Source: Phycisphaera mikurensis (GTDB taxonomy: Bacteria > Planctomycetota > Phycisphaerae > WQYP01). Taken from it: DNA of 43,651 nucleotides. Of the stretch, positions 11,640 through 39,761 are shown piece by piece; the stretch's first letter is position 1, and each line of letters opens with the position of its first letter. The stretch is from positions 1 to 43,651 of the forward strand of contig DZDI01000009.1 in the NCBI GenBank assembly GCA_022730455.1. The letters run 5' to 3'. The notes below the pieces were generated by a model. The model saw nothing but the letters and a program-made list of their open reading frames with translations, did not search any database and was not told where the DNA came from. Made by a program: the position numbers and the translations under genes.

Positions 11640-11693
11640 CCGGGAATTTGTCCAAGTAATAGCAGCCCTGTTATTACCTAGACAGATTCCCGG
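11640..11693. repeat. Dispersed repeat, copy 1: inverted pair of cores
   Basis: Two 26-bp arms, imperfectly complementary at a few positions, face each other around a 2-nt loop. The left arm contains TTGTCCAAGTAATAGCAG and the right arm CTGTTATTACCTAGACAG. This is a diverged version of the perfect palindrome at 39707-39756. It lies in the 456-bp gap between two same-direction genes, upstream of the methyltransferase and downstream of the transglutaminase-like gene. Transcribed, it would form a long hairpin. Confidence 0.85.
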
Positions 11694-11907: not shown

Positions 11908-12027
11908 CCGGATGCAAGGCGTCGGGTCGACGGCGACTCTGGTGAAGGTGAGTCGTCGAAGATCGAAAACGCCGCAGACGAAGCGTTTGCGGCACATCGC
12001 GGCCCTGCTATTACTTGGACAGACTCC
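11908..12027 (-). repeat. Dispersed repeat, copy 2: extended arm plus internal module
   Basis: Read on the minus strand, the element begins with the core at 12027-12005, continues with GCGATGTGCCG and AAACGC to complete a 45-nt arm, and after about 40 nt reaches a module (11908-11945). That module also occurs at 30921-30958, where it reads in the same plus orientation although the core there is inverted relative to this one. The module contains the near-palindrome CGTCGGGTCGACG. The element ends 8 bp from the stop of the transglutaminase-like gene, the place for a terminator. Confidence 0.85.
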
Positions 12028-12034
12028 TGCGAGA

Positions 12035-13924
12035 TTACCGGGCACGCAATACAACTCCGCCGGAATCAAGCTCATTGGCGACTTTACGGGCCAGGCGTCT
12101 GTGACCTTGGGCTTTAAGCATGGCCTTCAACTGTTCACCCACCTGATACCAGGAGCTTTCAGATTCAAAGGCGAGCATATCGCGCGGCGGAGGCTTGATT
12201 TTCAACCAAGTCTGTTCATAAAGCGTTAATATACGGTTTTTATGGCCTTGGCGGGCAAGAATTTTGGCTGCCTTCTCCAATGCGGTGATGACAAATGGGC
12301 CGGCATTGGTGTATCGATTGATAACAAACAATAAACATTCGCCGGCACGATTGTATTTTTTGGCCTTTTCCCACGCGGCGGCCTGCATCATGCGGATGCG
12401 GGCGGCCAAATCAAAGCGTGTATCGGCAAACAAAGGGAAGACGCGATTCCAGAGGCGGACGCGCTGGCTCACATCTTTCACCGAGTTGATCATGGGCGTG
12501 AGCACGGCCAAGGCGAAGTCGGGATACCTGCGGCCGCATAACCGCATGAGCTTTTCCGACCAGTGTTCTTTCTCCCCAAGCGTCAACATACCCCAATGGG
12601 CCATGAGGGCCACGGTTCGCCATTCGTCGGCATAACCGCGACAACTCTCAGTGGCTCGATCCAGCATTTTTAATTCGTTTTGGGATGTATTCATCAATGC
12701 CTTTCGGCGGAAGGCGCTAAGGTTGGCAGGAACCGGCTGCGGGTCAAAAGCGAGATGAGCTTTGCGAATAAACAGCAAACGTCGAGCGGCATCGGTCAAG
12801 GCAATAGCCGCCCAGCGATCTGATTGAGTGGTATGAATCAACTGGGCTGAAATCGACATGAAGTCATCGGGTTCGCGGCGACGTGTCATCGGGTTTTTAA
12901 CTGAACCGATGACACCCTGGTATTCCGAATACCGCCCCACATTAAAATTCCACCAGCCGCTGTTAGCACGTGCCTGCAAAAAGCCGACCCAGGCATGACC
13001 GACCACACTGGATATCCCCTCATCAATGGCGGTTGGAACGCCAATGGCCTTTCCGACCGCCGCGGCGAAATAGGCCTGATCAATGCATATTCCGCCATAT
13101 TTGAGAATGTTGGGGAGGTTGTACCCGGCGCGATCGACGCGTTTGACCGCATCGGGCTGCAGAGCACTGTAATCGTATTTGATGGTGAAGAACAACCGCC
13201 CCACAATGGGATCGCCACGATAGCGGGCCAGGGCCCACTTCATCTCCCGGATGGTGGCGCAGTCATCCACGACGTAGACCAACAGGCGGGCGGGCACATC
13301 CTTTATACCAAAATACATCTGGTGGCGGTATTTTACATAGTACTTAAATATTGCGTTCGGACTCGGTGAAGTCACCAGATTTTCATTCAGATGCCGATGC
13401 AGAGGTTTAAATAGTGTCACGCAGATGGCGGCGGTGAGATTGGGGTATTTCAGAATTTCCTTGCCCAGCGCCGCGTGCATCTTATAGAGTCGCGAATAGA
13501 TGCTGCTGACCGGTTGTCGATGCAATTCGATTAGAAAGGCGAGGGTTTCGCCCAACTCCTGATTTTTTAGCAGCAGGTGCAGAATCTGGCCACGGCGGTT
13601 GGTATCGGACATCCGGGAAAGTTGGCTGGTCAGCCGCCGGGCATAGTCAACATCGACGAGTGCGGCCACATCATGCGACGGGGCACGCTCAATAGCCAAG
13701 TCAAAAAGGTGGCCAAGGCTTGCAACAGCGTGATGGTACCCGCCATGCGATTCCAAGTTCATAAGAACGTGGTTGACACGGTGACGTAAAAATACTGCGA
13801 ACTTAAGCTTTTTCACCGTCGCGGCAGGTTTGGCGCTCGGCGTGACGGCCGCGTGCAGGTTATTTGTCGGTACGAAAGCCAAACATGCGGCGAACACCAC
13901 TGCTGAAATAAATTTCACGACCAT
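12035..13924 (-). CDS. Secreted transglutaminase-like protein
   Basis: A 629-residue precursor with a signal peptide (FISAVVFAACLAFVPT, cleavage near LHA-AV). After an alpha-helical N-terminal part of about 260 residues comes a transglutaminase-like core: KYGGICIDQAYFAAAV carries the candidate catalytic Cys280, VVGHAWVGF the His310, and WWNFNVGRY the place of the third residue, where Asn rather than Asp seems to stand. The C-terminal 270 residues are helical, perhaps TPR-like, and end in a basic region. The protein may act as a papain-fold protease or cross-linking enzyme in the periplasm, or be inactive. ATG at 13924 has GAGG 5 nt upstream; an upstream extension to 14014 lacks support. It looks monocistronic. 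Confidence 0.65.
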   Translation of the reverse strand: MVVKFISAVVFAACLAFVPTNNLHAAVTPSAKPAATVKKLKFAVFLRHRVNHVLMNLESHGGYHHAVASLGHLFDLAIERAPSHDVAALVDVDYARRLTSQLSRMSDTNRRGQILHLLLKNQELGETLAFLIELHRQPVSSIYSRLYKMHAALGKEILKYPNLTAAICVTLFKPLHRHLNENLVTSPSPNAIFKYYVKYRHQMYFGIKDVPARLLVYVVDDCATIREMKWALARYRGDPIVGRLFFTIKYDYSALQPDAVKRVDRAGYNLPNILKYGGICIDQAYFAAAVGKAIGVPTAIDEGISSVVGHAWVGFLQARANSGWWNFNVGRYSEYQGVIGSVKNPMTRRREPDDFMSISAQLIHTTQSDRWAAIALTDAARRLLFIRKAHLAFDPQPVPANLSAFRRKALMNTSQNELKMLDRATESCRGYADEWRTVALMAHWGMLTLGEKEHWSEKLMRLCGRRYPDFALAVLTPMINSVKDVSQRVRLWNRVFPLFADTRFDLAARIRMMQAAAWEKAKKYNRAGECLLFVINRYTNAGPFVITALEKAAKILARQGHKNRILTLYEQTWLKIKPPPRDMLAFESESSWYQVGEQLKAMLKAQGHRRLARKVANELDSGGVVLRAR

Positions 13925-14086
13925 CGCAACCTCATGACTTGACAGGACGATTACGCCCTGAAGTATTGCCCGGAAATTATACCCCATCCAAGGCGGTGCG
14001 ACAATATTATCCACCTGTCGCTGGCCGCCGAGGCGGAGGATGGATTTACGACGTTGCAGGCACGCGTGCGGGTAATCGATTAGCCT

Positions 14087-14851
14087 TTGCGTGTTGTGAA
14101 TGGCTTGCGAATGAAATATCGGAAGTGGTGGGTAGAAGCCGGGCTGGCCTTGGCCTTAGGTGCAGCGGCAGGCCTGGCCCTGCGCCCCTACGGGCGTGGC
14201 CCATTGGAAACGACGGCTGTCATTTCAGCCATGCAGATCATCATTATATCGGGTGTGGCATGGTCGTTCATCGGCCGCATGGCGTCAAAGTCAATATGGA
14301 GCCGCCCGCTGCTGGCGATGGCCGCTTCGGGCTGTGCAGTGGTGGCCAGTTGCTGGGCCCTTCTCCCGGTCACGGATGTCACCCGATTGGTGGTTGCCGC
14401 TGGACTATGGGCCGTATTTATTGTTGGTTTAAGCGTCGTTACCGCAGGTAACCGGCCCGACCGGCGTCGCTTGCCAGCAATCGCCTTGGCGGTGAGTATC
14501 ATCCTGCCGCTCTGGCCGATTGTCGCCGCACCGCTTATTGGAGCAGAATCGCATGGTGCGATTGAGGGGGTACTGAATTTCATTTTAGGTCTGTGTCCAT
14601 CCATCTGGATCATCCACATCACGCAAGCCACGACGGGGATGAACACCATCGGGTGGTTCCATTCGCAATTGTTATATCGAGTGGTACCGCTGGGGCAAAA
14701 TGCCCTCATACCGAAAACAATTCCATGGTTTGAGATGGCGGGCGGGGTGGGCGTCCTTGGGCTGCTTTTTATCTATATCTCGGCATGGCGTCGGAGAAAC
14801 GCCGGCACCCGCCGCACTGATCCGCCCGGTCGGCTGGCCTCGGCGCCATAG
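14087..14851 (+). CDS. Predicted integral membrane protein of unknown function
   Basis: A protein of about 254 residues with six or seven hydrophobic helices and a positively charged, Arg/Pro-rich C-terminal tail (RRRNAGTRRTDPPGR). No family signature is recognisable. The start is unclear: a TTG or GTG near 14087 and an ATG at 14111 (MKYRKWWVEAG) are in frame and neither has a good ribosome site. It precedes bamA in the same direction with a 72-bp gap, so it may be the first gene of the envelope cluster. Confidence 0.6.
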   Translation: MRVVNGLRMKYRKWWVEAGLALALGAAAGLALRPYGRGPLETTAVISAMQIIIISGVAWSFIGRMASKSIWSRPLLAMAASGCAVVASCWALLPVTDVTRLVVAAGLWAVFIVGLSVVTAGNRPDRRRLPAIALAVSIILPLWPIVAAPLIGAESHGAIEGVLNFILGLCPSIWIIHITQATTGMNTIGWFHSQLLYRVVPLGQNALIPKTIPWFEMAGGVGVLGLLFIYISAWRRRNAGTRRTDPPGRLASAP

Positions 14852-14923
14852 TGCCGATAGACTACGGCAAAATTTGCGGTGGCGGTGAAGGCTAATATTC
14901 TGCGTCCGGGGTGAAAGTTTTAA

Positions 14924-17320
14924 GTGAAGTACCAAAGTGGAGCAAAAACAATCCGGATTCAGAAATGGCTGGTTGCCAGCGCGGTGGCGGCGGCCATTTA
15001 CAGCCCGATGGCCCGTGTGGCGTGGGCAGCCAATCCACCATCTGTGAAAGTGCCGGCGGCACCCCGTGCTTCCACTTTGGCAGGTTACACGATATCCAAA
15101 GTCGAAATTGTTGGTGCATCCCCAGCCAACCTGAAACTGATTCGCAATCAAATTCGTGTGACTCCGGGTGAATCGTACGACCGTGCCGAAGTAGCCGTAG
15201 ACGTGCGTTCGATTGCATCTTTAGGACTCTTTTACTCGGTTCAAGCTCAGATTGTGCCACGCCCACATCACCAGGTGGTGGTGCGGTACGTGGTGAAAAC
15301 GCGTCGGGTGCTTAAACGTGTTGAATTTCAGGGCAACCGCCACGTTCATACCCACACGCTTAAAAATCTGGTGCTGGCGCACGCTGGTAAACCAATCGAC
15401 CCGTTTTTTTTTCAAACCGATATCAACGCCATCAAACACCTGTACCGGTCGAAGGGTTTTTTATATTGCGAGGTGAAGCTCAACAAGGCGGATTTAGCGA
15501 AGGGAATAGCCGACTACCAAATCACCGAGGGACCGCGGGTTTTTATCCGGGCCGTGCATTTCCTGGGCAACAAACTCTATCCGTCGTGGTTTCTGCACTT
15601 CAAGGCCGCAACGTCATCGCGGTGGAAACTGTTCTGGCTGATTACCGTACACAAGGGTGTGCTGTCAAAAAGTGAATTGCAATCGGATATGGCCATGCTT
15701 CGCCGTCTATGGCGGAAAAAGGGCTACTTGGATTGCCGCACCGCCTATCGACTGGTATTCAGCCCGGGATATCACCGGGTCGTGGTGAATTTTATTATTC
15801 ATTCGGGCGTTCGATATCGAATTGGAAATATATTTTTCAAAGGCGACACGGCGTTTCCGAAGGCCGAGCTGATGAAGCTAGTGCGCTTTACCCCCGGGAT
15901 GTACTACAGCCGGGATTTGATCAAGGCGGGGCAACGGCGAATCGCGGACGTATTTGGCAAGGCGGGCTATATTTACAGTCGAGTATCGCCGACCTTTGCC
16001 TACACCGTAAAACCGGGAGTTGTCAACTTAGATTATCACGTTGTGGAGGGAAAAACTTACCGCGTGGGACGGGTGATTATCCGTGGCAATACCAACGTGC
16101 AGGATCATGTGGCGCGGCGGCAAATCCGGTTATTTCCGAACCATCTTTATGACACAACCGTAGTGCGGCGATCCAATCAGCATCTTGACGCCCTGGGTTT
16201 ATTCGCGCACGCCCATATCACACCGATTGGCAGCAAGCCAGGCGTGCGCAATGCGCTGGTGAGTTTAACACCAAGCCAAACTGGTCGATTCGCCATTGGG
16301 CTGGGCGTTTCAACCGATGCAGGGTTGCTGGGACAGATCAGCGTCACGCAGCAGAATTTTGATATTACCAATTTTCCGCATTCGCTGGGCGAACTCCTGC
16401 GAGGGCAGGCCTTCAAAGGCAATGGACAATATTTTTCAATCTCAGCGGAACCCGGCACGGTGTACCAGTTGTATAAAGCTACATTTGCTGAACCTTATCT
16501 GTGGGACAGCCCCTACAGCCTGCGCAATACAGGCTACTTTTTTACCGAAATTTATAATACGTATAATCTCAATCGTCTGGGCAACCGGATCACGCTGGGG
16601 CGACGGATCACGCGGCATCTGACCGCGACGCTGGCATTTCGCTGGGAAAATGTCAGTCCGACCAGCATTCAATCGGATTCCGCACCCCAGATTCAGGCCC
16701 AAGCTGGAAATCACTATTTAAGCAGTATTACGCCGGGTATTGAATATAATCGCACGGTTGGCGGGATACTTCCCTACCGCGGATATGAGCTTGGTGCCAC
16801 GTGGGAGCAGTACGGCGCCATGGGCGGCAATTATACATTTTCAAAGATTGATCTATTCGGCACGTATTACCATACTTTGTATCGCGATTTATTCGGACGC
16901 CGCACAATTTTAATGCTGCGCGGGGATGTGGGGTTTATTCCGATCGGCCATTCCGTTTTCTTTGAGCGGTTTTACGCGGGCGGTATTGGATCGCTGCGAG
17001 GTTTCACCTATCAGGGCGTAACCCCGCGTGCCGGCCCGCAATTGGACGGCATTGGCGGCAACTTCATGTATGTAACGACGGCGGAAGTGAATTATCCGCT
17101 GTACCAGAAGATTTTGCGGGGTGTGGCGTTCGTGGATGTGGGTGATGTGGAGCCTAACGTGCATTTCGGCCAGTTGCGGGCAGATTTCGGCGTAGGTGTG
17201 CGTATCATCCTGCCGTTTTTTGGCCGACTGCCCTTAGGTATCGATTTTGCCTACCCCGTGATCCATGGCCCGCAGGATCACATATCGTACGTGAGCTTTG
17301 CTTTGGGCATCCCGATGTGA
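14924..17320 (+). CDS. bamA: Outer membrane protein assembly factor BamA (Omp85)
   Basis: BamA inserts beta-barrel proteins into the outer membrane. The 798-residue protein has a signal peptide (cleavage near AWA-AN) and about five POTRA domains between residues 50 and 400, each starting with a pattern such as YTISKVEIVGAS, VLKRVEFQGNR, IGNIFFKGD or VGRVIIRGN. A 16-stranded barrel of about 380 residues follows. The diagnostic loop-6 motif of Omp85 appears as GIGSLRGFTYQG, where the usual form is (V/I)RGF, and the end reads VSFALGIPM. The start is a GTG at 14924. The length matches the family. It heads the order bamA, ompH, lpxD, lpxC/fabZ, lpxA, the same order as in Proteobacteria, which links barrel assembly to lipid A supply. 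Confidence 0.93.
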   Translation: MKYQSGAKTIRIQKWLVASAVAAAIYSPMARVAWAANPPSVKVPAAPRASTLAGYTISKVEIVGASPANLKLIRNQIRVTPGESYDRAEVAVDVRSIASLGLFYSVQAQIVPRPHHQVVVRYVVKTRRVLKRVEFQGNRHVHTHTLKNLVLAHAGKPIDPFFFQTDINAIKHLYRSKGFLYCEVKLNKADLAKGIADYQITEGPRVFIRAVHFLGNKLYPSWFLHFKAATSSRWKLFWLITVHKGVLSKSELQSDMAMLRRLWRKKGYLDCRTAYRLVFSPGYHRVVVNFIIHSGVRYRIGNIFFKGDTAFPKAELMKLVRFTPGMYYSRDLIKAGQRRIADVFGKAGYIYSRVSPTFAYTVKPGVVNLDYHVVEGKTYRVGRVIIRGNTNVQDHVARRQIRLFPNHLYDTTVVRRSNQHLDALGLFAHAHITPIGSKPGVRNALVSLTPSQTGRFAIGLGVSTDAGLLGQISVTQQNFDITNFPHSLGELLRGQAFKGNGQYFSISAEPGTVYQLYKATFAEPYLWDSPYSLRNTGYFFTEIYNTYNLNRLGNRITLGRRITRHLTATLAFRWENVSPTSIQSDSAPQIQAQAGNHYLSSITPGIEYNRTVGGILPYRGYELGATWEQYGAMGGNYTFSKIDLFGTYYHTLYRDLFGRRTILMLRGDVGFIPIGHSVFFERFYAGGIGSLRGFTYQGVTPRAGPQLDGIGGNFMYVTTAEVNYPLYQKILRGVAFVDVGDVEPNVHFGQLRADFGVGVRIILPFFGRLPLGIDFAYPVIHGPQDHISYVSFALGIPM

Positions 17321-17387
17321 TGGATCAAGATAATCTGAATTTTGAATTGTTATCTGCGAATGATTTACTATGCATAGGAGTATGAAA

Positions 17388-18038
17388 ATGAAAACAGTTA
17401 TTTCGCCTAAGTGGTTGCTGGCGGGTGCCGCCGTGCTGGCGTGTGCCGCCTTCGGTGCAAGCCATGCACCCTTTCAGTCGCCGAGGGCACGGGCTGCTGC
17501 CATGCCTGCGCCTGCGGGCATGAAGATAGCCGTGGTTAACTATCAGAGACTTCCTCTCGACCTCGACGAGCAGGTGCACAATCTGCATGTGTTTAAGCGG
17601 GAGGAGAACACCATGCAGGCTCAGTTACAATCGGAGAGAACGGCTCTCAAAAAGATGATGGAGCCATTGAATCCCAATTCTGCCCTCGCCTTGAAAGCCG
17701 GTACGGCGGAATATAACAAGCTCACGGCCAAAGTGCGCAAAGCTGCCATCCGGCTTTCCGTGGATCGGCGCTATATGCAATTGTCGTTTCGGGCTGACAC
17801 GCGTCATGCACTTGAATCGATTTATTCCCACGCCCAAACGGCCATCGCCGCCTATGCCAAGGCGCATCACATTTCTCTGGTGCTCGACAGCATGAAGCCA
17901 CTCCAGAACATCGGATCGACCCGCGCTTTTATCCAGATGGTGCAGTCACGAAATGTTCTCTATGCATCGCGGGGGCTGGATATTACCGACCAAATTGCGG
18001 CAGCGATGAACCGGGCGTGGACGAATGCACACCGCTGA
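17388..18038 (+). CDS. OmpH/Skp-family periplasmic chaperone
   Basis: A 216-residue precursor with a signal peptide (LLAGAAVLACAAFGASH) and a mature part that begins with a beta strand (MKIAVVNYQRL), followed by long helices rich in Gln, Glu and Lys. This is the Skp layout of a small beta body with coiled-coil tentacles. Skp holds unfolded outer membrane proteins on the way to BamA. Its place directly between bamA and lpxD is the classical one. ATG at 17388 has AGGAG 7 nt upstream, which decides against the in-frame ATGs at 17370 and 17382. Sequence identity to known Skp proteins is probably low. Confidence 0.8.
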   Translation: MKTVISPKWLLAGAAVLACAAFGASHAPFQSPRARAAAMPAPAGMKIAVVNYQRLPLDLDEQVHNLHVFKREENTMQAQLQSERTALKKMMEPLNPNSALALKAGTAEYNKLTAKVRKAAIRLSVDRRYMQLSFRADTRHALESIYSHAQTAIAAYAKAHHISLVLDSMKPLQNIGSTRAFIQMVQSRNVLYASRGLDITDQIAAAMNRAWTNAHR

Positions 18039-18109
18039 TCGGTCAGCGTCAAGTCGGCGGCCTTATAAATCGTTACTGAAACTCTCAGCCGTGTGAGGAT
18101 GTTGCGTGT

Positions 18110-19162
18110 ATGAAGTTTTCAGCGCGTCAGGTGACACAATGGACGGACGGGCAATGCATAGGCCCGGACAATACGGTTTTTAGCGGCATCGAAGTGGTGG
18201 ATCGCGTTCAAACCGGCTTCCTCACGCTGATTGGGGCGGCCAAATTTGCTAAAAACTTTGCGTCATCTCCTGCAGCCGGGGCTCTCTGCAATGCCGATGT
18301 CGAGGTTCGTCCGCGACCCGATCAGGTCATTATCCGCGTGCCGAACGCCGATTTGGCGATGATTAAAGTGTTAGAAAATCTCCAGCTGCCGTCGGATACC
18401 CCGAAAGTCGGCGTGCACCCGACGACGACTGTAGCGGCGACGGCGGTCATTGATCCCAGCGCACGCATCGGGCCGCAGTGTGTCATTGGCGAAAATGCGG
18501 TCATTGGTTGTCGAACGGTGCTTGAGGCGCAGGTGTTTGTCGGGGATGGCTGTGTGATCGGTAACGATTGTCGACTCCACGCCCAGTGCGTAATACGGGC
18601 CCAAAGCGAACTGGGACATCGTGTCATTCTGCACAGCGGGTGCGTGATTGGTGCCGACGGATTTGGCTACGTTTTTTCGGAAGGGCGGCATCACAAAATT
18701 CCTCACATTGGCCAGGTGCGTATTGAAGATGACTGCGAACTGGGTGCCAACACGTGTGTGGATCGAGGCAAATACACGCAGACCGTGATTGGTGCCGGGA
18801 GCAAACTGGATAATCTGGTGCAGGTGGGGCATAATGTAGTCTTGGGTCGGCATACGATTCTGGTGTCGCAGGTGGGCGTAGCCGGATCGGTGACGGCCGG
18901 TGACTATCTGGTGATGGGTGGCGGATCGGTGTTGGCCGACCACATAACAGTTGGCGCCGGGACCCAGGTAGCTGGATTTTCAGCGGTGGTCGATGACACG
19001 CCCTCGGGGGCGCGCATGCTCGGTGCGCCAGCACGGCCGGCGCGTCAGTTTTTTGCGGAACTTAAAGCCCTCTCGCGACTGACGAAAAGCTTGCAGGACC
19101 TGAAAGAACTTCAAGAGCGGGTAGCCAAGATTGAATCAACCACAAAAGACCATCGCGCATGA
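18110..19162 (+). CDS. lpxD: UDP-3-O-acylglucosamine N-acyltransferase
   Basis: LpxD adds the N-linked hydroxyacyl chain in the third step of lipid A synthesis. The 350-residue protein has an N-terminal uridine-binding domain (residues 1-100), a left-handed beta-helix of hexapeptide repeats (about 105-290) and a C-terminal helix. The catalytic His is H241 in LVQVGHNVVLG, and the segment GADGFGYVFSEG matches the pantetheine/acyl-carrier contact region of the family. The spacing from ompH is 71 bp, and the 3' end overlaps the next gene by 32 bp, which suggests translational coupling within the operon. Confidence 0.95.
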   Translation: MKFSARQVTQWTDGQCIGPDNTVFSGIEVVDRVQTGFLTLIGAAKFAKNFASSPAAGALCNADVEVRPRPDQVIIRVPNADLAMIKVLENLQLPSDTPKVGVHPTTTVAATAVIDPSARIGPQCVIGENAVIGCRTVLEAQVFVGDGCVIGNDCRLHAQCVIRAQSELGHRVILHSGCVIGADGFGYVFSEGRHHKIPHIGQVRIEDDCELGANTCVDRGKYTQTVIGAGSKLDNLVQVGHNVVLGRHTILVSQVGVAGSVTAGDYLVMGGGSVLADHITVGAGTQVAGFSAVVDDTPSGARMLGAPARPARQFFAELKALSRLTKSLQDLKELQERVAKIESTTKDHRA

Positions 19163-20438
19163 GACGACTGTTACCGGACGCGGTTTATTTACCGGTTGCG
19201 AAAGTCAGGCGACATTTACACCTGCGCCCGTGGGACACGGCGTGGTGTTTGTGCGCACCGATCTGCAGCGTCCCGTCCGGATGCCCGCTTTGGTGGAACA
19301 TATCACCAAACGGGCCCGGCGCAGCACCTTGCGCAGTGGCCCTGATTCCCTTGAAACCATAGAACATTGCATGTCCGCTCTTGCCGGGTTGGGTATCGAT
19401 AATATTCAGATCAGTGTTTCCGGTGGCGAATTACCGGGTGTGGACGGCTCTTGTCAGCCTTTTGTCGAAGCACTTGAGCAAGCGGGCATCGTGGAACAGG
19501 AAGTTGAGCGGCTGTATCTAAAAATTACCGAGCCCATAGAAGTAACCGATGGATCCGGCACCTTGATTGCCTCTCCCCCGGCAGGTGATGAGTTTCAAAT
19601 CATTTTTGACCTGGATTACGGGCCGGGTACGGTGATCGGTCAACAGCTATATTCCTATCGGCTGGGGCCTGACTTCAGCCGGGAGATAGCTCCGGCGCGG
19701 ACATTTGTGCTGGAGGAAGAAGCCCAGATGCTGCGCAGCCGCGGACTTGGGCTGCATCTCAAACCTGGCGACGTGGTCGTGGTTGGCGCCCATGGTCCCA
19801 TAGGGACAACTTTTCGATTTTCCGATGAATGCGTCCGGCACAAAGTGCTGGACTTAATCGGCGATCTTTACCTGCTGGGCTGCCCGATACGCGGGCGCAT
19901 CGTGGCGTATAAGTCCGGTCACGCGTTAAACCATGCACTGGTGCGGCGCATGCGGGCCATGCTTGAAGCGCAGCATAACAGTGCACTGCTGAAAAATGCC
20001 CCGGTCATGGACATTCGCACGATAAGTAAAATTCTTCCGCATCGTTATCCGATGTTGCTGGTGGATCGGGTGATCGAGATGGATGGTGACCGTCGGGCAG
20101 TGGGTATTAAAAATGTAACTTTCAACGAACCTTTTTTTCAAGGGCATTATCCGGGTCAGCCGGTTATGCCGGGGGTGCTGATTGTCGAGGCGATGGCGCA
20201 GCTTTCCGGATTGCTGCTTTCGCATAAACTTGAGCACACGGGCAAAGTCGCGCTGCTGATGTCGCTGGACAAAGTAAAGGTGCGCAGGCCCGTGGTACCG
20301 GGTGATCAATTGATACTGGAGGCGGAAAATATCCGGGTCAAGGCGCGTACCGGACACGTACGGGCCAACGCCCGTGTGGGCGACCAGCTAGCGGCCGAGG
20401 CGATTATTAAATTTATGATCGTCGACGAAATTCAGTGA
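19131..20438 (+). CDS. lpxC/fabZ: Bifunctional LpxC deacetylase / FabZ dehydratase fusion
   Basis: Residues 1-285 are UDP-3-O-acyl-GlcNAc deacetylase (LpxC), the committed step of lipid A synthesis. The zinc ligands H79, H237 and D241 and the catalytic residues E78 and H264 fall at nearly the E. coli numbers. Residues about 292-435 are the hot-dog-fold (3R)-hydroxyacyl-ACP dehydratase FabZ, with LPHRYPMLLVDRV and the catalytic pair H339/E353. Such fusions are known from Bacteroidetes and other phyla. Fusing both activities balances lipid A against phospholipid synthesis, since both use hydroxyacyl-ACP. The start is a TTG at 19131 inside the end of lpxD; the usual beginning TI..TVTGRGLFTG follows directly, and no later start keeps that region. 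Confidence 0.95.
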   Translation: MNQPQKTIAHETTVTGRGLFTGCESQATFTPAPVGHGVVFVRTDLQRPVRMPALVEHITKRARRSTLRSGPDSLETIEHCMSALAGLGIDNIQISVSGGELPGVDGSCQPFVEALEQAGIVEQEVERLYLKITEPIEVTDGSGTLIASPPAGDEFQIIFDLDYGPGTVIGQQLYSYRLGPDFSREIAPARTFVLEEEAQMLRSRGLGLHLKPGDVVVVGAHGPIGTTFRFSDECVRHKVLDLIGDLYLLGCPIRGRIVAYKSGHALNHALVRRMRAMLEAQHNSALLKNAPVMDIRTISKILPHRYPMLLVDRVIEMDGDRRAVGIKNVTFNEPFFQGHYPGQPVMPGVLIVEAMAQLSGLLLSHKLEHTGKVALLMSLDKVKVRRPVVPGDQLILEAENIRVKARTGHVRANARVGDQLAAEAIIKFMIVDEIQ

Positions 20439-20459
20439 AAAGAATTATCGGAAGTCAAC

Positions 20460-22365: not shown

Positions 22366-22378
22366 CATCATCGACAGG

Positions 22379-23155: not shown

Positions 23156-23341
23156 GCAACAATTTTACCGTCATTGACAGCGATCAGCGCCCATGGGCCA
23201 TCGGCCGCCCGAAGGCGTGGTTCGCCGTAGTGTACGCCGGCGACCTTATCAGAATTTTAGCTGATCGTTCATGGATGGATATCGCTTCACAGATAAACTC
23301 ACTCTGCGGGTCGGATTGGAGAGCCGTGGGTATTTTATCGC

Positions 23342-23431
23342 TGGAGGACTCCATTCCGGCTGGCCATCGGCTGTGGTGAACCTGATCCGCGCCGCATGAT
23401 TAAATGCGTCCATCACACCTCTCTTCCGCCG
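23342..23431 (+). ncRNA. Candidate structured leader or small RNA upstream of the alpha/beta hydrolase
   Basis: The 379-bp gap 23156-23534 contains no convincing gene. Its second half folds by eye into TGGA/TCCA around GGAC (23342-23353), then TGTGGTG (23372-23378) pairing with CATCACA (23411-23417) with one G-T pair, which encloses CGCAT/ATGCG (23393-23408). It is followed directly by the terminator at 23432-23466. No coding region ends before this terminator on the plus strand, so it either ends a small RNA or controls the downstream gene by attenuation. No known riboswitch class is recognised. Confidence 0.35.
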
Positions 23432-23466
23432 GGAGCTGTCGGTTTACCGACAGTTCCTTTTTTTTT
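23432..23466 (+). terminator. Intrinsic terminator 68 nt upstream of the alpha/beta hydrolase start
   Basis: An 11-bp stem (GGAGCTGTCGG / CCGACAGTTCC, one G-T pair) with loop TTTA is followed at once by nine T residues. This is a textbook Rho-independent terminator on the plus strand. No plus-strand gene precedes it closely, since its upstream neighbour is on the minus strand. It is therefore an orphan terminator or the expression platform of a leader. Confidence 0.85.
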
Positions 23467-23534
23467 GCATGTGGATACACTGACCCGTATTAGGTGCGTA
23501 CTGGGGCAGACTATAAAAAAGGAGATTGTCGGCC

Positions 23535-24461
23535 ATGGGAAACGTTTTTACAGGAATCGCTTTGATCATCGGGCTGGCGGCGTCTGCGTCGGCACGCACA
23601 GTTATTCCGGTTTGGCCACACCTGCATGTGCCACCGGCTCAGCGCAAAGTGATCAAGAACATCCAGGGGGCGAACGGCTTGATGGAAATTCGGCCTATTT
23701 TATGGCCCACGTTGATGGAGTTTCCCGCCCCCAAATACAAACGCAACGGATGCGCGGTGGTCATATGCCCGGGCGGAGGCTACTACGCAGAAGCTATGGC
23801 ACTGGAAGGATATCGTGTAGCGCGGCGTTTCAATCAGGCTGGCATCTCTTGCTACGTGCTGAGATATCGGCTTCCGGAGGGCAAGCTGCCACGCAGCGGC
23901 GTGCCGTGGCCCTTGCAGGATGTTCGTCGAGCAATTCAAATTGTTAAAGCCCACGCCAAGGCGTGGCATATCAACCCGCAGGATGTCGGGGTGATGGGCT
24001 TCTCGGCGGGCGGATCCGTGGCATCGCTGGCCGGCGTGCATTGGGTTCCCGCCAACCCGCAGTCGCCGGACCCGTTGAATCATTTCAGTTCGCGGCCCGC
24101 GTTTATGGTACTGGGATACCCTGTCATATCCATGCTGCCGGGAATTACACACCCGGGATCACATGATAACCTGCTGGGCCGACATCCGGCCTTGCTGACT
24201 GAAAAGTATTTTTCCAGTGAATTGAACGTCGATGCACTCACACCCCCGGCATTTATTTTTTATGCCCACGATGATACAACTGTGCCGCATCAGAACGAAA
24301 AGCAGTTTTACGCGGCGCTTCGACGCGTTGGCATTCCGGCTAAATTGGTACGATTTAAACATGGTCAACACGGTTTCGGGCTGGGTCGGCCGGGTACAGA
24401 TTCGGTAAAGTGGCCCGACTTATGTATTAAATGGTTACGACAAATGAAATACTTACCATGA
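23535..24461 (+). CDS. Secreted alpha/beta hydrolase (esterase/acetylxylan-esterase-like)
   Basis: The 308-residue precursor has a short signal peptide (FTGIALIIGLAASASA). The alpha/beta-hydrolase elements are the oxyanion loop CPGGGYYAEAMALEG, the nucleophile elbow GFSAGGSVA, the acid in FYAHDDTTVP and the His in FKHGQHGFGLG. This arrangement is typical of the BD-FAE/acetylxylan-esterase group that removes acyl groups from plant or microbial polysaccharides; the real substrate is unknown. ATG at 23535 has AAGGAG 10 nt upstream; a TTG at 23526 lies too close to that site. A terminator-bearing leader precedes the gene. Confidence 0.85.
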   Translation: MGNVFTGIALIIGLAASASARTVIPVWPHLHVPPAQRKVIKNIQGANGLMEIRPILWPTLMEFPAPKYKRNGCAVVICPGGGYYAEAMALEGYRVARRFNQAGISCYVLRYRLPEGKLPRSGVPWPLQDVRRAIQIVKAHAKAWHINPQDVGVMGFSAGGSVASLAGVHWVPANPQSPDPLNHFSSRPAFMVLGYPVISMLPGITHPGSHDNLLGRHPALLTEKYFSSELNVDALTPPAFIFYAHDDTTVPHQNEKQFYAALRRVGIPAKLVRFKHGQHGFGLGRPGTDSVKWPDLCIKWLRQMKYLP

Positions 24462-24504
24462 CTCTGTTTTTCAGGTTCGTCTACGGAACCAGTCAGGTGC
24501 CTGG

Positions 24505-25467
24505 ATGATCCTGGCGGGTATTGATGAAGCTGGATACGGACCACTGCTGGGGCCGCTGGTTGTCAGCGCCGTGGCGTTTGATGTCCCGCAACCTATAACC
24601 GACCAGATACCCGATCTGGCCGGGATGCTGGCGCCCGCCGTAGCGGCCAAACCACCCCTGCCGCACGGATCTCTTTTGGTGGCCGACAGTAAGGTGGTGC
24701 ATCGATTGCAAAATGGCCTCCATCATATGGAGGCGGCATCGTTGATTGCCACCGAATTGGCCTGCGGTAGAGCCGCGCCGGCGCAACTGGAACCGTTAGC
24801 CAAGGCCTTGGGGTGGGCTGGTCAGTGCCGGTTGCCATGGTATCAGTGGGGCAACGCAGTCACCCCGCTGTGGACATCGGCCGACGCCATCCGTATCACA
24901 CGATCGATGCTTCAGGGACAGATGGCATCGCGAGGCGTCCGTATGCCGATGGCCCGATCAGCTCTCATTGATGAGGCAAGTTTTAACGATCAGGTTGGTA
25001 AAACACGCAATAAGGCGGCCGTGCTAAGCTCTCACGGGATGCAATTGCTGAAACAAATTGCGGATCATCATGCTGGTGATTCCTGGGTGGTAGTAGATAA
25101 AAACGGCGCACGCGACCGCTATCTGGATTTATTGTTGCGTACCTTCCCGGAAGTGGTCTGGCGAGTGTGCACAGAATCCCCATTCATCAGCCGATATGAA
25201 TGGCACCGGCCTGATGGCCTTTTCCGTGTAGATTTTCAACAAAGAGCTGAGCAGGCATGCATGGCGACCGCATGGGCCAGCATGATCTGCAAATATCTGC
25301 GTGAACGGGCCATGGATCAATTTAATCGCTGGTGGATGGCGGAATCGGGCGCCCACATCCGCCCAACGGCGGGTTATCACACCGACGCCCTGCGATGGCT
25401 TTCTGAAATGGCTCCCTATCTGGAACGTTACGGTCCTCCCCAGGAATTGTGGGTGCGTATGCGGTAG
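24505..25467 (+). CDS. Enlarged RNase HII-like protein
   Basis: The N-terminus AGIDEAGYGPLLGPLVVSA matches the RNase HII signature, with the catalytic Asp-Glu pair (D7, E8). Other family landmarks follow: LLVADSK (about residue 62), WVVVDKNGARDRY (about residue 199, a candidate third acidic residue) and MATAWASMICKYLRERAMD, the equivalent of the ASI.AK..RD segment. The protein is 320 residues, over 100 longer than usual, with an insertion of about 90 residues between the second and third landmarks. Tyr replaces the common Arg in the G-R-G motif (GYG), which in RNase HII contacts the RNA-DNA junction. So it may not be a standard RNase HII. The ATG has AGGTG about 6 nt upstream. Confidence 0.7.
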   Translation: MILAGIDEAGYGPLLGPLVVSAVAFDVPQPITDQIPDLAGMLAPAVAAKPPLPHGSLLVADSKVVHRLQNGLHHMEAASLIATELACGRAAPAQLEPLAKALGWAGQCRLPWYQWGNAVTPLWTSADAIRITRSMLQGQMASRGVRMPMARSALIDEASFNDQVGKTRNKAAVLSSHGMQLLKQIADHHAGDSWVVVDKNGARDRYLDLLLRTFPEVVWRVCTESPFISRYEWHRPDGLFRVDFQQRAEQACMATAWASMICKYLRERAMDQFNRWWMAESGAHIRPTAGYHTDALRWLSEMAPYLERYGPPQELWVRMR

Positions 25468-25479
25468 GAGCCGGCCCTT

Positions 25480-25524
25480 GGAGTCTGTCTAAGTAATAGC
25501 AGAGCTGCGAGATGCCGGAAATGC
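25480..25524 (+). repeat. Dispersed repeat, copy 3: extended single arm
   Basis: The core, with GTCTGTCTAAGTAATAGCA, is followed by AGCTGCGAGATGCCGGAAATGC. Together this is a 45-nt arm that matches copies 2 and 4 with a few substitutions. It lies 12 bp after the stop of the RNase HII-like gene and 22 bp before the stop of the convergent desaturase, so it fills the whole space between two converging genes. Confidence 0.85.
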
Positions 25525-25546
25525 TCACCGATAAAAGCTTTGGTTG

Positions 25547-26449
25547 CTATGGATGAGGTTCAGCTACGGACTGGCCAGGGCGTTGTGGCTCGACGACTTT
25601 CCAGGCCAAACCCATGATACGCATCACACGTATGGTGACATACGTGATATCAAATTCAAACCAGCGCATACCATGGGCTGCTGATCGCTGCTGGGCGTGA
25701 TGGTTATTGTGCCAGCCTTCTCCAAAGGAAAACAGAGCAACCCACCAGTTATTACGTGAATCATCATCCGTCTTAAAATTGCGGTAGCCCCAGGTGTGGG
25801 CGGCGGAATTGACAAACCAGGTTGCGTGATAAAGCAGCACAACACGCAAGCAGCCTCCCCACAGCACCCAAGAGACGCCTCCCGTCCAATGACCTAACCA
25901 CAACCAGCCACCGACAAACAGGCCGGCGGCCAGAATGAATTGTGGGACGTACCAATAGCGATCAATAAAACAGAGAACGCGATCACGCTGGATGTCCTTG
26001 GTCAACTTGAGGGGATCAAAATTGCTGCGTGCACGATGCACAATCCAGAGCAGATGTGACCACGAAAAACCATCGCGGGGCGAATGCGGATCTGCGACGT
26101 CGTCGGACTCCGTATGGTGCTGCCGATGAGTGCCGACCCACTGAATAGGCCCCCCCTGCCACGAGAGGCAGGCAAAGATGGTGAGCATGTACTCAATGGG
26201 TTTGTACGTGGCAAAACTGCGATGTGTCAGCAACCGGTGATAACCCAGCGTTACGCCTAAGCCGCCGGTCACCCACGCCAAGATGAAAAAAACCACAAAA
26301 GATGAGAGATGGATCATCGACGGAAGAAAGGCCAAAACAGCGGCAATGTGCAAAACTATAAACACGCTGAAGTAGAACCAATGAAACTGAACTCGCTCGC
26401 CGTCCCGGAGTTCTCGGTCACGAAAATGCCTGATTTTTGCTGATGCCAT
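25547..26449 (-). CDS. Fatty-acid (acyl-CoA/acyl-lipid) delta-9 desaturase
   Basis: A membrane-bound di-iron desaturase of about 300 residues. The three histidine boxes are intact: HRLLTHR, HRQHH within GTHRQHHTESD, and HNNHH within EGWHNNHHAQQRS. Two pairs of membrane helices flank them. It introduces a cis double bond into saturated acyl chains using O2 and a reduced electron carrier, which implies life with oxygen. The start at 26449 (MASAKIRHF) follows AGGTGAG closely; a GTG at 26509 in frame would add 20 residues. The gene is divergent from squalene-hopene cyclase, so both membrane-lipid genes may share a control region. Confidence 0.93.
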   Translation of the reverse strand: MASAKIRHFRDRELRDGERVQFHWFYFSVFIVLHIAAVLAFLPSMIHLSSFVVFFILAWVTGGLGVTLGYHRLLTHRSFATYKPIEYMLTIFACLSWQGGPIQWVGTHRQHHTESDDVADPHSPRDGFSWSHLLWIVHRARSNFDPLKLTKDIQRDRVLCFIDRYWYVPQFILAAGLFVGGWLWLGHWTGGVSWVLWGGCLRVVLLYHATWFVNSAAHTWGYRNFKTDDDSRNNWWVALFSFGEGWHNNHHAQQRSAAHGMRWFEFDITYVTIRVMRIMGLAWKVVEPQRPGQSVAEPHP

Positions 26450-26953
26450 ACTCACCTGAAAAATAATTTTACCCACCGTTGATCTCGCCTCCTGATCGAC
26501 CGGCGTCACAAGCCGCCATCATCGTCTGGAGACGAGCTGCTACACCCATCATTGTATACTCATTGCACAATTAAATCCGAATGGGCGGAAATCGCAGAAA
26601 GAGAGAATGCAATTTTCGATCGGCCACTGACGCTGCGACCAGCTCAAAACGATCAGGTTCAGGCCGTTATGCGACCAAATTCCCGCAAACTGCGGTATTC
26701 GGGCGGCCAAGGGCACCAATGCGGCAGAAGATCAAAAATTGGCAACCAGTTAAGTATTCATCGGCGGGTAAAACGAGAGCGGCTTGCCGCTGAGTGAATA
26801 TTCGGCTAGCTTTTTGTCAGAATTTGGCGTTGTACGCCGGGCACGACCCATCAGACGGTTAACTGCGTTTGGCGGATGAGGCCATTGGCCAGATGGTGCT
26901 TGTCGCTTGTTACTGGATCGAATTGGCCAAACGGGAAAAAAGGCGTATAAGCA
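26450..26953. other. Divergent intergenic region between desaturase and squalene-hopene cyclase
   Basis: About 500 bp lie between the two divergent starts and must hold both promoters. Short forward frames here have no protein-like character. A small hairpin GCGG-CTTG-CCGC is at about 26782-26793. I see no clear operator or known RNA element. Confidence 0.3.
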
Positions 26954-28942
26954 GTGACTCGGATTGCCCCTGTAACAGCCGCTCCTCAAGAATCTGACGA
27001 TCGCATCAATGCCTTAGACAATCTGGCAGCCCCTCTGAATAGCGTAACCGCTTCCCCCGAACCGAAACTTGAAGAGAGCATCAATGTGGCCACGCAGTGT
27101 TTGCTGTCAAAACACAACCAAGCGGGCTATTGGGTGGGAGAATTACAGGGCGACAGTATCCTGGAATCTGAATACATCCTGATGAAATTTATTCTTGGGC
27201 AGGAAAATGATGCGTGCCTGCCTTTCATCGCAAACTATCTTCGGTCGATCCAATTACCTGATGGCGGCTGGAGTATGTTTCCCGATGGGAACAGCGACTT
27301 GGCCGGTACCGCTAAAGGCTACTTCGCCTTGAAATTATTGGGAGATTCGCCCGAGGCCCCGCACATGCGGGCGGCCCGGGATGTGGTGCGTCGGCTGGGC
27401 GGAGCGGAGAACTGTAACAGCTTTACCAAATTTTTTTTCGCGGCACTGGGGCAGGTGAGTTACGCAGCTTGTCCCAGCATTCCACCGGAAATCATTCTCA
27501 TTCCTAAATGGATTTACTTTAATCTTTACGCGGTATCGGCTTGGAGCCGAACCATGATTTTGCCGCTGGCGATTGTCAGCGCCTATCGCCCGGTACGGGC
27601 GCTACCAGTGGAATTGGGCATCCGTGAGTTATTCAATGATGAATCCAAGATACGTACCGCGACAGGAAAACTCAAAGGTCTGCCGCGGAGCTGGCGGGAA
27701 ATGTTTTTGCTGCTGGATTTATCGCTTAAGCGTTACCAGAAAACAGCCGTGACGCCGCTGCGTCCGCTGGCAATACGTGAGGCAGAAAAATGGCTCCTGG
27801 AACACATGGATGGGTGCGACGGTCTGGGTGCCATCTTCCCGCCGATGGTTTACATATTGATCGTACTGCGAATTCTGGGCTACGCCGATGACCATCCCGT
27901 GGTGGTTAAAGCGCAGAAGGATCTTAAAGATTTATTTATTCAAGAGGGTGATACCATTCGGATCCAGCCGTGCTGGTCGCCGGTATGGGACACGGGCATT
28001 GCGATGCATGCTTTGGCCGAGGCTGGTGTGACGCACCAGCACCCAGTGGCGCAATCGACAACGCGGTGGCTGCAGGAAAAGGAATGCCGCACCGCAAGCG
28101 ATTGGGCCAAAAATTGCCCGGGAGTTGAGCCTTCTGGTTGGTTTTTTGAATTCAATAATCCCCACTATCCCGATGTGGACGATACCGCCATGGTGACGAT
28201 GGCCCTCAAACGACTTGGTGGGCCGATTGCGGATCAGGCCGTCCGACGAGGTTTTAATTGGTTGCTGGCGATGCAAAATGACGACGGCGGATGGGCTGCA
28301 TTCGATCGCACACGCAACCGTCCGATATTAGAGCACGTTCCGTTTGCCGACCATAACGCCATTCAAGACCCGTCATGTCCGGATATCGCAGGGCGCGTTT
28401 TGGAATGTTTGGGACATATCGGATTAAAAAGCGATCATCCGGCCGTACGCAAAGCTGTGCGATTTCTACAGGAAACGCAGGAACCAGAAGGGTGCTGGTT
28501 CGGACGGTGGGGCGTTAATTATGTCTACGGCACCTGGCAGGTGCTTACGGGCTTACGGGCCGTGGGTGAGCGGATGGATCAGCGATTTGTCCGTCGGGCC
28601 GCCGACTGGCTCCGTTCGTGTCATAAGCCCGATGGCAGTTGGGGCGAATCGTGCCAGACATACGATAATCCGGAACTCAAAGGCCGCGGCCCAAGCACGC
28701 CATCGCAAACCGCCTGGGGTGCCATGGGACTGATGGCCGCCGCCGGCCCGCACGATCCGCACGTTAAAGCAGCCATCCGCTGGCTGATTGAAAACCAGAA
28801 TCCGCAAGGGGATTGGGACGAACCGTGGTTTACCGGCACCGGGTTTCCCCGCGTGTTTTATCTCAAATACCATCTCTATCGCCTTTATTTTCCACTAATG
28901 GCATTGGCACGGTATCGGCGACTCTTGCAATCGGCGCGATAG
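26954..28942 (+). CDS. shc: Squalene-hopene cyclase
   Basis: It cyclises squalene to hopene/hopanol at the inner membrane, giving hopanoids that order membranes as sterols do. The 662-residue protein has the catalytic DxDD motif as D407-V-D-D410 (HYPDVDDTAM). It also has several QW repeats of the terpene cyclase family, for instance QLPDGGWSMF, MQNDDGGWAAFD, CWFGRWGVNYVYGTW and KPDGSWGES. The last parts include the expected QTAWGAMGL and GTGFPRVFYLKYHLYR. The start is a GTG at 26954 with a modest ribosome site. No other hopanoid genes (hpnC-E, hpnH) are in the window. Confidence 0.95.
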   Translation: MTRIAPVTAAPQESDDRINALDNLAAPLNSVTASPEPKLEESINVATQCLLSKHNQAGYWVGELQGDSILESEYILMKFILGQENDACLPFIANYLRSIQLPDGGWSMFPDGNSDLAGTAKGYFALKLLGDSPEAPHMRAARDVVRRLGGAENCNSFTKFFFAALGQVSYAACPSIPPEIILIPKWIYFNLYAVSAWSRTMILPLAIVSAYRPVRALPVELGIRELFNDESKIRTATGKLKGLPRSWREMFLLLDLSLKRYQKTAVTPLRPLAIREAEKWLLEHMDGCDGLGAIFPPMVYILIVLRILGYADDHPVVVKAQKDLKDLFIQEGDTIRIQPCWSPVWDTGIAMHALAEAGVTHQHPVAQSTTRWLQEKECRTASDWAKNCPGVEPSGWFFEFNNPHYPDVDDTAMVTMALKRLGGPIADQAVRRGFNWLLAMQNDDGGWAAFDRTRNRPILEHVPFADHNAIQDPSCPDIAGRVLECLGHIGLKSDHPAVRKAVRFLQETQEPEGCWFGRWGVNYVYGTWQVLTGLRAVGERMDQRFVRRAADWLRSCHKPDGSWGESCQTYDNPELKGRGPSTPSQTAWGAMGLMAAAGPHDPHVKAAIRWLIENQNPQGDWDEPWFTGTGFPRVFYLKYHLYRLYFPLMALARYRRLLQSAR

Positions 28943-28948
28943 ACGGGC

Positions 28949-29404
28949 ATGATCTGGGACGCGAGTGTGGCCGGACACGCGCGGTATTTTAGCAATATGG
29001 GACACGATAATATGCCAACCAAATCGTACCAATATATAAGCTTGGCCATTGCCCTGCTGGGCGTCGGCCTGATTGCCAATGCGGCGGTACAACTCTTTGA
29101 CCACCATGGAGGCTGGGCCAGTCGCACGGTATGGGGGCGTGGCGTAGAGATAGCCCCGTCGCTTGCTGGCCACACGGGCAGCATTCAGGCTTTTCCAGTA
29201 CAGATGGGGCGATCCATATATGGTTTTGTATTGCTTGATCCCAGGCGCCATTCGCTGGCCGTGTATCGGCTCGACGGCGACGTGTCACGATTGCGCCTGC
29301 TGGCCGCCCGCAATTACCGTTATGACCTGCGACTGAAGGATTTCAATAATTCTTCACCCACGCCGGTGCAGGTGAAAAAGTTGCTGGGCATGGTGAGCCA
29401 TTGA
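28949..29404 (+). CDS. Small membrane-anchored protein of unknown function
   Basis: The frame gives up to 151 residues. The first 20 are doubtful, and an ATG at 29012 (MPTKSYQYISLA) directly before a hydrophobic segment may be the true start. One transmembrane helix or signal (ISLAIALLGVGLIANAAV) is followed by a globular part of about 90 residues, rich in beta strands (SIYGFVLLDPRRHSLAVY), ending in KDFNNSSPTPVQVKKLL. I do not recognise a family. It starts 7 bp after shc and in the same direction, so it is probably co-transcribed with it. Confidence 0.55.
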   Translation: MIWDASVAGHARYFSNMGHDNMPTKSYQYISLAIALLGVGLIANAAVQLFDHHGGWASRTVWGRGVEIAPSLAGHTGSIQAFPVQMGRSIYGFVLLDPRRHSLAVYRLDGDVSRLRLLAARNYRYDLRLKDFNNSSPTPVQVKKLLGMVSH

Positions 29405-30121
29405 CGATTTCCGAACGCACGCGGCGGAAGCTTGAGCCGGTTCGCAAGAAGCGCATTTATTGCTTCAGTCGGAAATGGAGAAACGGGCTTTTGGCATAAG
29501 GGATAAGATGGTGCCGCGTGGGACCTGCGCAGCTGGCGACGCGTCGGTGCAGTGAAGGTAGGAGATGCCACGAAATCACCCCAGCCATCGGCATCATTGT
29601 TGGATGCCGATTCATAATGCATCATCCAAAAAACCGAGGCCCGTAGTCCCCATGGACATCGAGGCCGTTAATTTTTGGTCGGGCTGAAACAGTGCAGGGG
29701 CCCGTTCCTGCGTCCCATGCCGCAGGCCGGTTTCCCGGCTCAAGCCTCAAAGATGAGGCGCCGTGGCGTCTCGCGACGATAGGCAACGCGCAGCGAAGGC
29801 GTGCTATGAATCAATATTTTGGCGGTTGCACCGTGGCTGCGTTTACGTCCACCAAAAAGGTTGTTGGCATTCACTCAGTTATATATGGATCGCCAATACG
29901 ACCACGATTCGATCAGCCGGTTCCTGGAACGAGGAAATAACGAGATACTCGGTGCCCTGTGTGCGGCTGGCGTAGTGTCTGAAGCAGATTGCATCTTATC
30001 CAAAGCCTTCCTCGCAGGGTGCATCTTCACCATAATGGTTTCCACTTTCGCCGTCCATTTAAAGGCCTTGGGCTGGGCGTTGTGGGCGGCAACATATCGT
30101 TAATCGCCGTGATTAACTGCT
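29405..30121. other. Gene-poor 717-bp region
   Basis: Several short frames exist on both strands (up to about 100 residues). None has a good ribosome site, a recognisable motif or consistent codon use, so none is called. The longest forward one, 29819-30103, ends in a hydrophobic stretch and could be a decayed or novel small protein. The notable content is a row of small hairpins at 29694-29778, listed separately. Confidence 0.4.
29694..29778. ncRNA. Row of four short hairpins, candidate structured RNA
   Basis: Within 85 nt four perfect stems follow each other: GCAGG/CCTGC (29694-29711, loop 8), GCCGG-TTTC-CCGGC (29726-29739), GCCTCA-AAGA-TGAGGC (29744-29759) and CGTC-TCGC-GACG (29767-29778). 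Three have tetraloops. The strand is undetermined because all stems are symmetrical. No known family is recognised, and GC-rich chance pairing cannot be excluded. Confidence 0.3.
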
Positions 30122-30736
30122 CTAGTGCTCTGTCGGTGATAGCCCGGCACCGGTTTTTCCTGCGCGGGCTTTGTGAAACGTGAGGCCAAAGTGGTAAGGC
30201 GGCAGGTCAATCTGTTCTGGACCGAAGGGTATAAAATCCAAGTCCATGGCCCACGCGCGGCACTGCTGTGGTCGTGGCCGAATATTCATGTTCGGTCCAC
30301 GCGGCGTCGTGGGATCGTAGTTCCAATGCATCACGGCCAGTGTACCGCCGGGCGTCAGTATCCGTTGCGCCTCCTTCAGCAGCACATCTGGCTGCTCGCA
30401 ATGCAGAATGTTGAAGAGCATCACGTAGTCGATGCTGGCGGCGGGGAGACCCGTGCCGTTGGCTATAAAATCTCGCCGCATGGTGTGCACATTGGTCAGA
30501 CCATTGATCTTAGCCTTCCGGGCGGTTGCCTCCACCATGTCGGCTTCAATGTCGAAGGCAAAGACCGTGCCGCAAATAGCACGCGCGGCAGGGATGGTGA
30601 ACGTACCGTAGCCACAGCCGACATCCACAACATCACCGCATGTGCCGGTCAGGTTCAGTTTCACCAGCGTCTCGGCTGGCGCAAAAAAGCCGGACCACAT
30701 CAATTCATCCGGCATGCCACTTTCGCGTGTCTTCAT
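30122..30736 (-). CDS. Class I SAM-dependent methyltransferase (small)
   Basis: A 204-residue protein with motif I VVDVGCGYGTFTIPAA at about residue 37, the strand-2 acidic residue in VFAFDIEADMVEA, motif II/III IDYVMLFNILHCEQP and post-motif ILTPGGTLAVMHWN. The C-terminal part contains QIDLPPYHFGLTF. These define a UbiE/Methyltransf_11-like fold; the substrate is unknown. It stands alone, divergent from the iron-transport locus, and copy 4 of the dispersed repeat lies in the gap between them. Confidence 0.8.
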   Translation of the reverse strand: MKTRESGMPDELMWSGFFAPAETLVKLNLTGTCGDVVDVGCGYGTFTIPAARAICGTVFAFDIEADMVEATARKAKINGLTNVHTMRRDFIANGTGLPAASIDYVMLFNILHCEQPDVLLKEAQRILTPGGTLAVMHWNYDPTTPRGPNMNIRPRPQQCRAWAMDLDFIPFGPEQIDLPPYHFGLTFHKARAGKTGAGLSPTEH

Positions 30737-30874
30737 TATGGTGCCATGATAGCCGTTTTTCTACCTTGGGACTGTACTGCGTCTGCCAATTCCCGCTCAG
30801 TCCATGCATTTTAACGTTTTTAGTTGGCGTGGTGAAGACTCGCACAGTTGGAAGACCCTGCTGACGCTGCGCCC

Positions 30875-30967
30875 GGAGTCTGTCCAAGTAATAGCACGGC
30901 TGCGATGTGCCGGAAACGCCCCGGATGCAAGGCGTCGGGCCGACGGCGACTCTGGTGAGGCCGAGAA
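30875..30967 (+). repeat. Dispersed repeat, copy 4: extended arm plus internal module
   Basis: The core (30875-30897) is followed by GGCTGCGATGTGCCGGAAACGC, completing the 45-nt arm. Next, at 30921-30958, comes the same module as in copy 2 (11908-11945), with the near-palindrome CGTCGGGCCGACG and GACTCTGGTGA. Unlike most copies it lies between divergent genes, upstream of the FTR1 permease. Confidence 0.85.
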
Positions 30968-34721: not shown

Positions 34722-34778
34722 TCTCGGCGTGAGGTTGGGGTGCGACATTCAGGCAGCGTGTGCAGAAACCCATGCCAA

Positions 34779-34808
34779 CGCAGCCTTGCTATTACTTGGA
34801 CAGACTCC
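34779..34808 (-). repeat. Dispersed repeat, copy 5: single core
   Basis: Minus-strand core (34808-34786) followed by GGCTGCG. It lies between two convergent genes and touches the stop codon of the HEAT/TPR gene by one base. Only one arm is present, so it cannot form the long hairpin by itself. Confidence 0.85.
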
Positions 34809-39672: not shown

Positions 39673-39706
39673 GGCCGCACCACGTAGATGCTGCCCCTTG
39701 CGAGCC

Positions 39707-39756: not shown

Positions 39757-39761
39757 ATGGG

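Follow-up and report, generated by a model that had tools for sequence, protein, structure and literature searches.

Dispersed palindromes in a planctomycete genome are very probably remnants of a non-autonomous element with IS1182-family ends

The stretch of DNA analyzed here (hereafter the window) comprises 43,651 nucleotides and corresponds to contig C214 of the genome of Phycisphaera mikurensis (G000). Six elements or fragments of a dispersed repeat were found inside it (Table 1). The two longest copies share an arm and a module, located where an earlier note on this sequence had placed them. The arm segments (11974-12027 and 30875-30928) form an inverted repeat of 54 nt that is 87% complementary, and the modules (11904-11952 and 30917-30965) form a direct repeat (49 nt, 90%), confirming that the orientation of the arm with respect to the module differs from one copy to the other, being inverted. 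Four of the six elements lie 0-12 bp past an ORF stop codon. For example, the left-end fragment sits 12 bp past the stop of ORF 24505-25467, and the perfect palindrome lies 6 bp past that of the metallo-beta-lactamase-fold ORF 39762-40550 (minus strand). The stop codon TAG of ORF 34808-35659 (minus strand) is located exactly at the junction with the 33-nt end fragment (CATAG next to GAGTC). The other palindrome is flanked by CCGG on both sides. Regarding the genes themselves, ORF 24505-25467 has the start of an RNase HII (first 23 Pfam positions only) followed by an otherwise divergent body (320 aa, no frameshift), and ORF 12035-14014 (659 aa) has no Pfam match. The window copies are absent from three congeners, in which the spacers are too divergent for base-precise empty sites.

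Table 1. Repeat elements and fragments of the window and their correspondence with the full-length element.
Feature	Coordinates	Strand	Correspondence
48-bp palindromic deletion derivative (11643-11690)	11640..11693	.	core(+)-GCCC-core(-)
Right part, left arm missing	11908..12027	+	positions 47-135 joined to ~250-280
Left-end fragment, core and arm (25480-25525)	25477..25525	+	full-length positions 1-46
Left half: core, arm, module (30875-30967)	30872..30967	+	positions 1 to ~84, then truncated
End fragment, 33 nt (34776-34808)	34776..34811	-	one end only
Perfect 48-bp palindrome (39708-39755)	39705..39758	.	

Complete copies were found elsewhere in the genome (C252:17354-17624, C281:24067-24337, C189:44762-45033 and C137:5000-5279). 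They measure 271-281 bp and consist, in this order, of core and arm, the module, about 130 bp of additional sequence and an inverted end. This establishes the arm(+)-module-arm(-) order that had been suggested for the parent. The terminal inverted repeat starts with GGAGTCTGTCCAAGTAATAGC and spans about 31 bp, made of the 22-nt core and about nine further bases. The window parts were mapped onto a 280-bp full-length copy. The two long copies are indeed both parts of one parent, but this parent is larger than the 150-160 bp expected by the earlier note. The proposed 45-bp arms at both ends did not hold either. The 45-nt right arm of the 11908-12027 copy is a secondary deletion product, since an interior segment, GCGTTTGCGGCACA, complementary to the left arm, has been joined by deletion to the right end, and inner hairpin B has been taken out. 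The same type of junction is present in a 91-bp palindrome (C43:10355) and in C225:7293. The short palindromes near 11640 and 39707 proved to be internally deleted forms, as had been anticipated: they map to positions 1-23 plus 253/256-280, the one at 11643-11690 corresponding to 1-23 plus 256-280. The parent thus combines a small size and terminal inverted repeats with the lack of a transposase gene, as expected for a MITE.

To assess the abundance of the element, we counted its end sequence, GGAGTCTGTCCAAGTAATAGCA, which occurs about 147 times in the genome (0-1 in the control). Using the pattern GTCCAAGTAATAGCA, a 15-nt inner core, with at most one mismatch, 147 matches were obtained, whereas the reversed pattern, used as control, gave 0 and 1; chance is therefore excluded. 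At least 53 dispersed DNA matches to the full unit were also detected. Copies and fragments of the element number well over one hundred in this planctomycete, whose genome is a 3.23-Mb draft of 394 contigs (~93% complete) in which many copies reach contig ends. Nearly all of these copies are eroded by deletion. Outside this genome, the 20-nt end sequence (at most two mismatches) was found in 16 of 101 genomes, all belonging to the same family (28 genomes), and the 73 genomes that represent other families within the class had no match. Homologs of the element were present in 15 of the 28 genomes of this one Planctomycetota family. The full-length set used below comprises 90 copies from 13 genomes, including P. 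mikurensis. We found no description of an IS1182-type MITE in Planctomycetota in the searchable literature.

The copies avoid genes and cluster just past stop codons. Among 108 ends in the P. mikurensis genome, 25 are located between -10 and 60 bp relative to the stop codon of a gene that is oriented toward the end, as compared with 67 of 1,500 control points, and only 20 are inside ORFs (846 of 1,500 control points). In eight ORFs the stop codon lies exactly at the junction, and in five others a TAA inside the core serves as the stop. An element end has also been found at the beginning of a gene. At C115:18452-18520 (L018:1494-1560), the beginning of a conserved UbiE-like methyltransferase gene has been exchanged for a truncated MITE left end, which gives the gene its start codon and first residues (ATGAACCACTCTTCACGCCCCGAACAT in the congener G003 versus GCGATGTACCAGAAACGCCCCGAGCAA here, joined within ACGCCCCG). 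We considered that C115:18452-19443, with CTAG on both sides and the methyltransferase inside, could be a cargo transposon, and rejected this, the gene being a conserved resident of the family and the left end a truncated copy fused to it.

We then looked for a transposase with matching ends. In Planctomycetota bacterium YP1.bin19 (G017), two exact 20-bp ends located 1541 bp apart enclose an ORF of 443 aa, which matches NF033551 (IS1182 family) with 357 bits (cut-off 270) and contains the DUF772, DDE_Tnp_1 and DDE_Tnp_1_6 domains. This segment (C559:2356-3896) is an insertion sequence whose terminal 20 bp are identical to the MITE ends and which is flanked by CTAG. IS1182 elements with variant ends were found in other sister genera or congeners (G015, G006, G003 and a shortened one in G027). 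The IS copies of these five relatives, one internally shortened, all start with GGAGYCTGTCC and lie between two CTAG tetranucleotides. An autonomous partner with matching ends, as expected for a MITE, is thus present in the genomes of relatives; sharing is restricted to the terminal 20-21 bp, and the interiors are unrelated. In P. mikurensis itself (draft ~93% complete), there was no match to the G017 protein nor to NF033551, and the RAYT family PF01797 (Y1_Tnp) gave no match, the control being positive in five genomes. The transposase with matching ends that the earlier note had called for was therefore found as a DDE-type enzyme in relatives, but neither as this type nor as a RAYT in the genome itself. 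Since no transposase was detected there, mobilisation in trans remains putative. Contigs G003:C74 (L094) and G020:C55 (L095), from two genera, share a 2436-bp region with 100% identity, which comprises an IS1182 element and its flanks and reflects either cross-binning of the metagenome-assembled genomes or a very recent transfer.

Analysis of the flanks gave clues regarding the target site. At 140 ends of the P. mikurensis genome, the four flanking bases are C in 60%, Y in 90%, R in 90% and G in 87% of cases, the commonest flanks being CCAG, CTAG, CTGG, ATAG and TTAG. CTAG is also the commonest flank of the 90 full-length copies (48 of 180 ends). Left and right tetranucleotides are identical in 17 of these 90 copies (12 being CTAG/CTAG), as compared with 9.3 by shuffling, and in 2 of 21 copies of the P. 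mikurensis genome versus 1.0 by shuffling. MITE flanks are mostly non-identical, and target duplication is therefore not shown for this genome. Among palindromic tetranucleotides, CTAG shows the strongest depletion in the window (13 seen versus 28 expected from trinucleotides), so that it could plausibly have been lost once the element had inserted. Two empty sites are consistent with a duplication. In L237 (G020), a CTAACTC heptamer array is re-formed once the element and 4 bp are taken out. In L230 (G016), the element lies in the loop of a hairpin repeat, which is seen empty in G008 (L234), with both stem arms kept. A third candidate, L292, is ambiguous. As these comparisons involve diverged repeat copies, they support, without proving, a 4-bp duplication. 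The target duplication raised in the earlier note is seen as 4 bp in the IS elements and fits two empty sites, whereas most MITE flanks are non-identical. Complementarity between the flanks, which would point to replaced hairpins, did not extend beyond CTA. Gene-disrupting insertions were considered as evidence for the frame and dropped, only chance ORFs being involved.

Other repeats are associated with the element. Eight MITE copies of G002 (L283, L285, L286, L296, L304, L307, L309 and L334) have CGCGGCCACGA and TATGCTGGCCGGC as common flanks, as would be expected if the MITE were inserted in a larger repeat or had spread together with it; an empty form of this composite was looked for and not found. 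A second repeat family ending with TGACAGAGCACTAG (inner AATTTGTAGGCG) has CTAG at its end and is found in the window at 30122-30135 and at about 20 loci (e.g., L026:1640, L133:108 and L215:68 of the P. mikurensis genome). It directly adjoins a MITE end in L029, L047, L048, L090, L123 and L149, where CTAG, or a variant of it, is common to both.

The element has a strong predicted fold. One full-length copy folds with -131.8 kcal/mol as RNA (z -6.2) and with -68 as DNA (z -5.3), into a terminal stem around two inner hairpins, A and B, an arrangement conserved across genera. A compensatory change was detected in 24 of 90 pairs (12 copies from six genomes), a value reached in 0 of 500 shuffles and above every slid register. 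In the 90 copies, a double Watson-Crick substitution was found in 26 of 103 pairs; these covariation counts are inflated, since the copies are related to each other and do not represent independent events. Selection at the RNA level should favor G-U on one strand. G-U and A-C cells are equally common in the 90 copies (238 versus 240 on the modelled strand, 247 versus 245 on the other), and it is therefore more likely that the fold is maintained at the DNA level, through selection or through repair between the arms. No Rfam family was matched at gathering scores, and sub-threshold microRNA matches to the terminal hairpin were dismissed as chance.

Taken together, the window repeats are very probably what is left of a non-autonomous MITE of 271-281 bp belonging to the IS1182 insertion-sequence family. 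An IS1182 transposase, provided in trans in the past, would have bound the MITE ends and moved the element into CTAG-type sites, often the stop codon TAG or just past a gene, insertion duplicating 4 bp. Folding would take place in cruciform or single-stranded DNA and would account for the deletions of whole inner hairpins leaving 48-bp or 91-bp palindromes. It is also conceivable, if rather doubtful, that the interior is selected as folded DNA (cruciform or single-stranded hairpin), on which an IS1182-type DDE transposase or host replication/repair would act, the MITE spreading only if folded. In that case, the MITE would represent a foldback type within a DDE family, recognized by structure as well as by terminal sequence.

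The many short palindromes located downstream of genes, and the resemblance of the 48-bp units of two inverted cores to a REP doublet, could point to a REPIN/REP system mobilised by a REP-associated tyrosine (Y1) transposase. However, the lack of a Y1/RAYT match in the genome and the identity of the ends to those of a DDE IS1182 element with CTAG flanks indicate that the parent is not REPIN-like, one of the two options left by the earlier note. Moreover, the full unit is far from palindromes of 20-40 bp with a GTAG or CGTC foot, and its flank is a CTAG-like target. We therefore hold this origin to be extremely improbable and largely refuted; the other option, a MITE-like parent, agrees with the short length, the inverted ends and the DDE-type ends of the partner. 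The element could also be primarily a host-beneficial structured RNA, a terminator or mRNA stabiliser spread by transposition with its fold selected as RNA, in line with the folding energy, the covariation and the placement just past genes. The absence of any strand preference and of an Rfam family, and the truncation of most copies in this genome, with loss of the full fold, argue against this and make it quite improbable. A terminator role was considered for the 39708 palindrome in particular and rejected, as no intrinsic-terminator consensus match was found around that copy.

The manner of insertion allows a further alternative. IS1272 and TnSha1, of the IS1182 family, target hairpins, which are deleted in the process, without producing a duplication (PMC5678879, PMC4923244), and the MITE could likewise have replaced stem-loops, the CTAG flanks being an extended inverted repeat. 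Most MITE flanks are non-identical, the copies cluster past stop codons, where terminator hairpins lie, and CTAG is palindromic, so that duplication and repeat extension look alike. Yet the heptamer array of G020 regains its register only when a duplication of 4 bp is assumed, the hairpin empty site keeps both stem arms, and there is no excess complementarity of the flanks outside CTAG. Furthermore, 4-bp direct repeats are listed for IS1182 members, namely ISPse1 (PMC3281130) and an ISMac2-type MITE (PMC3852290). Replacement of stem-loops thus appears unlikely, and we favor insertion with a 4-bp duplication.

As remnants of an IS1182-type MITE, the dispersed palindromes of this planctomycete would be explained by one element and one transposase family, and they show the decay of a transposase-less element into REP-like palindromes and solo ends. 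The 90 full-length copies from 13 genomes constitute a large natural set with a covarying fold apparently kept at the DNA level, and the structure dependence of IS1182-type transposition becomes testable outside staphylococci. In the methyltransferase gene, there is a concrete example of a start codon taken over by an element end.

The closest known counterparts are the ISMac2-related MITEs of the IS1182 family in Methanosarcina acetivorans, which measure 160 and 169 bp and have inverted repeats of 25-26 bp, with a 4-bp direct repeat for one of the two (PMC3852290). Like them, the present element is non-autonomous with ends assigned to IS1182-family insertion sequences; it differs by its length, its location in Planctomycetota, its far higher copy number, its two-hairpin interior conserved across genera and its mostly eroded duplications. 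With the IS1182 element of G017 it shares the terminal 20 bp and the CTAG flanks, whereas that element has a transposase and an unrelated interior. The transposase family, the insertion near gene ends and, at one empty site, the insertion into a hairpin are reminiscent of IS1272 and TnSha1, but IS1272 is reported to insert without target duplication and without a sequence consensus (PMC5678879, PMC4923244), while a CTAG-like target is found here. Finally, the short extragenic palindromes past genes resemble REPINs and the GTAG and CGTC REP elements (PMC3733652), from which the present element differs by its longer parent, its DDE-type ends and the absence of a detected Y1 transposase.
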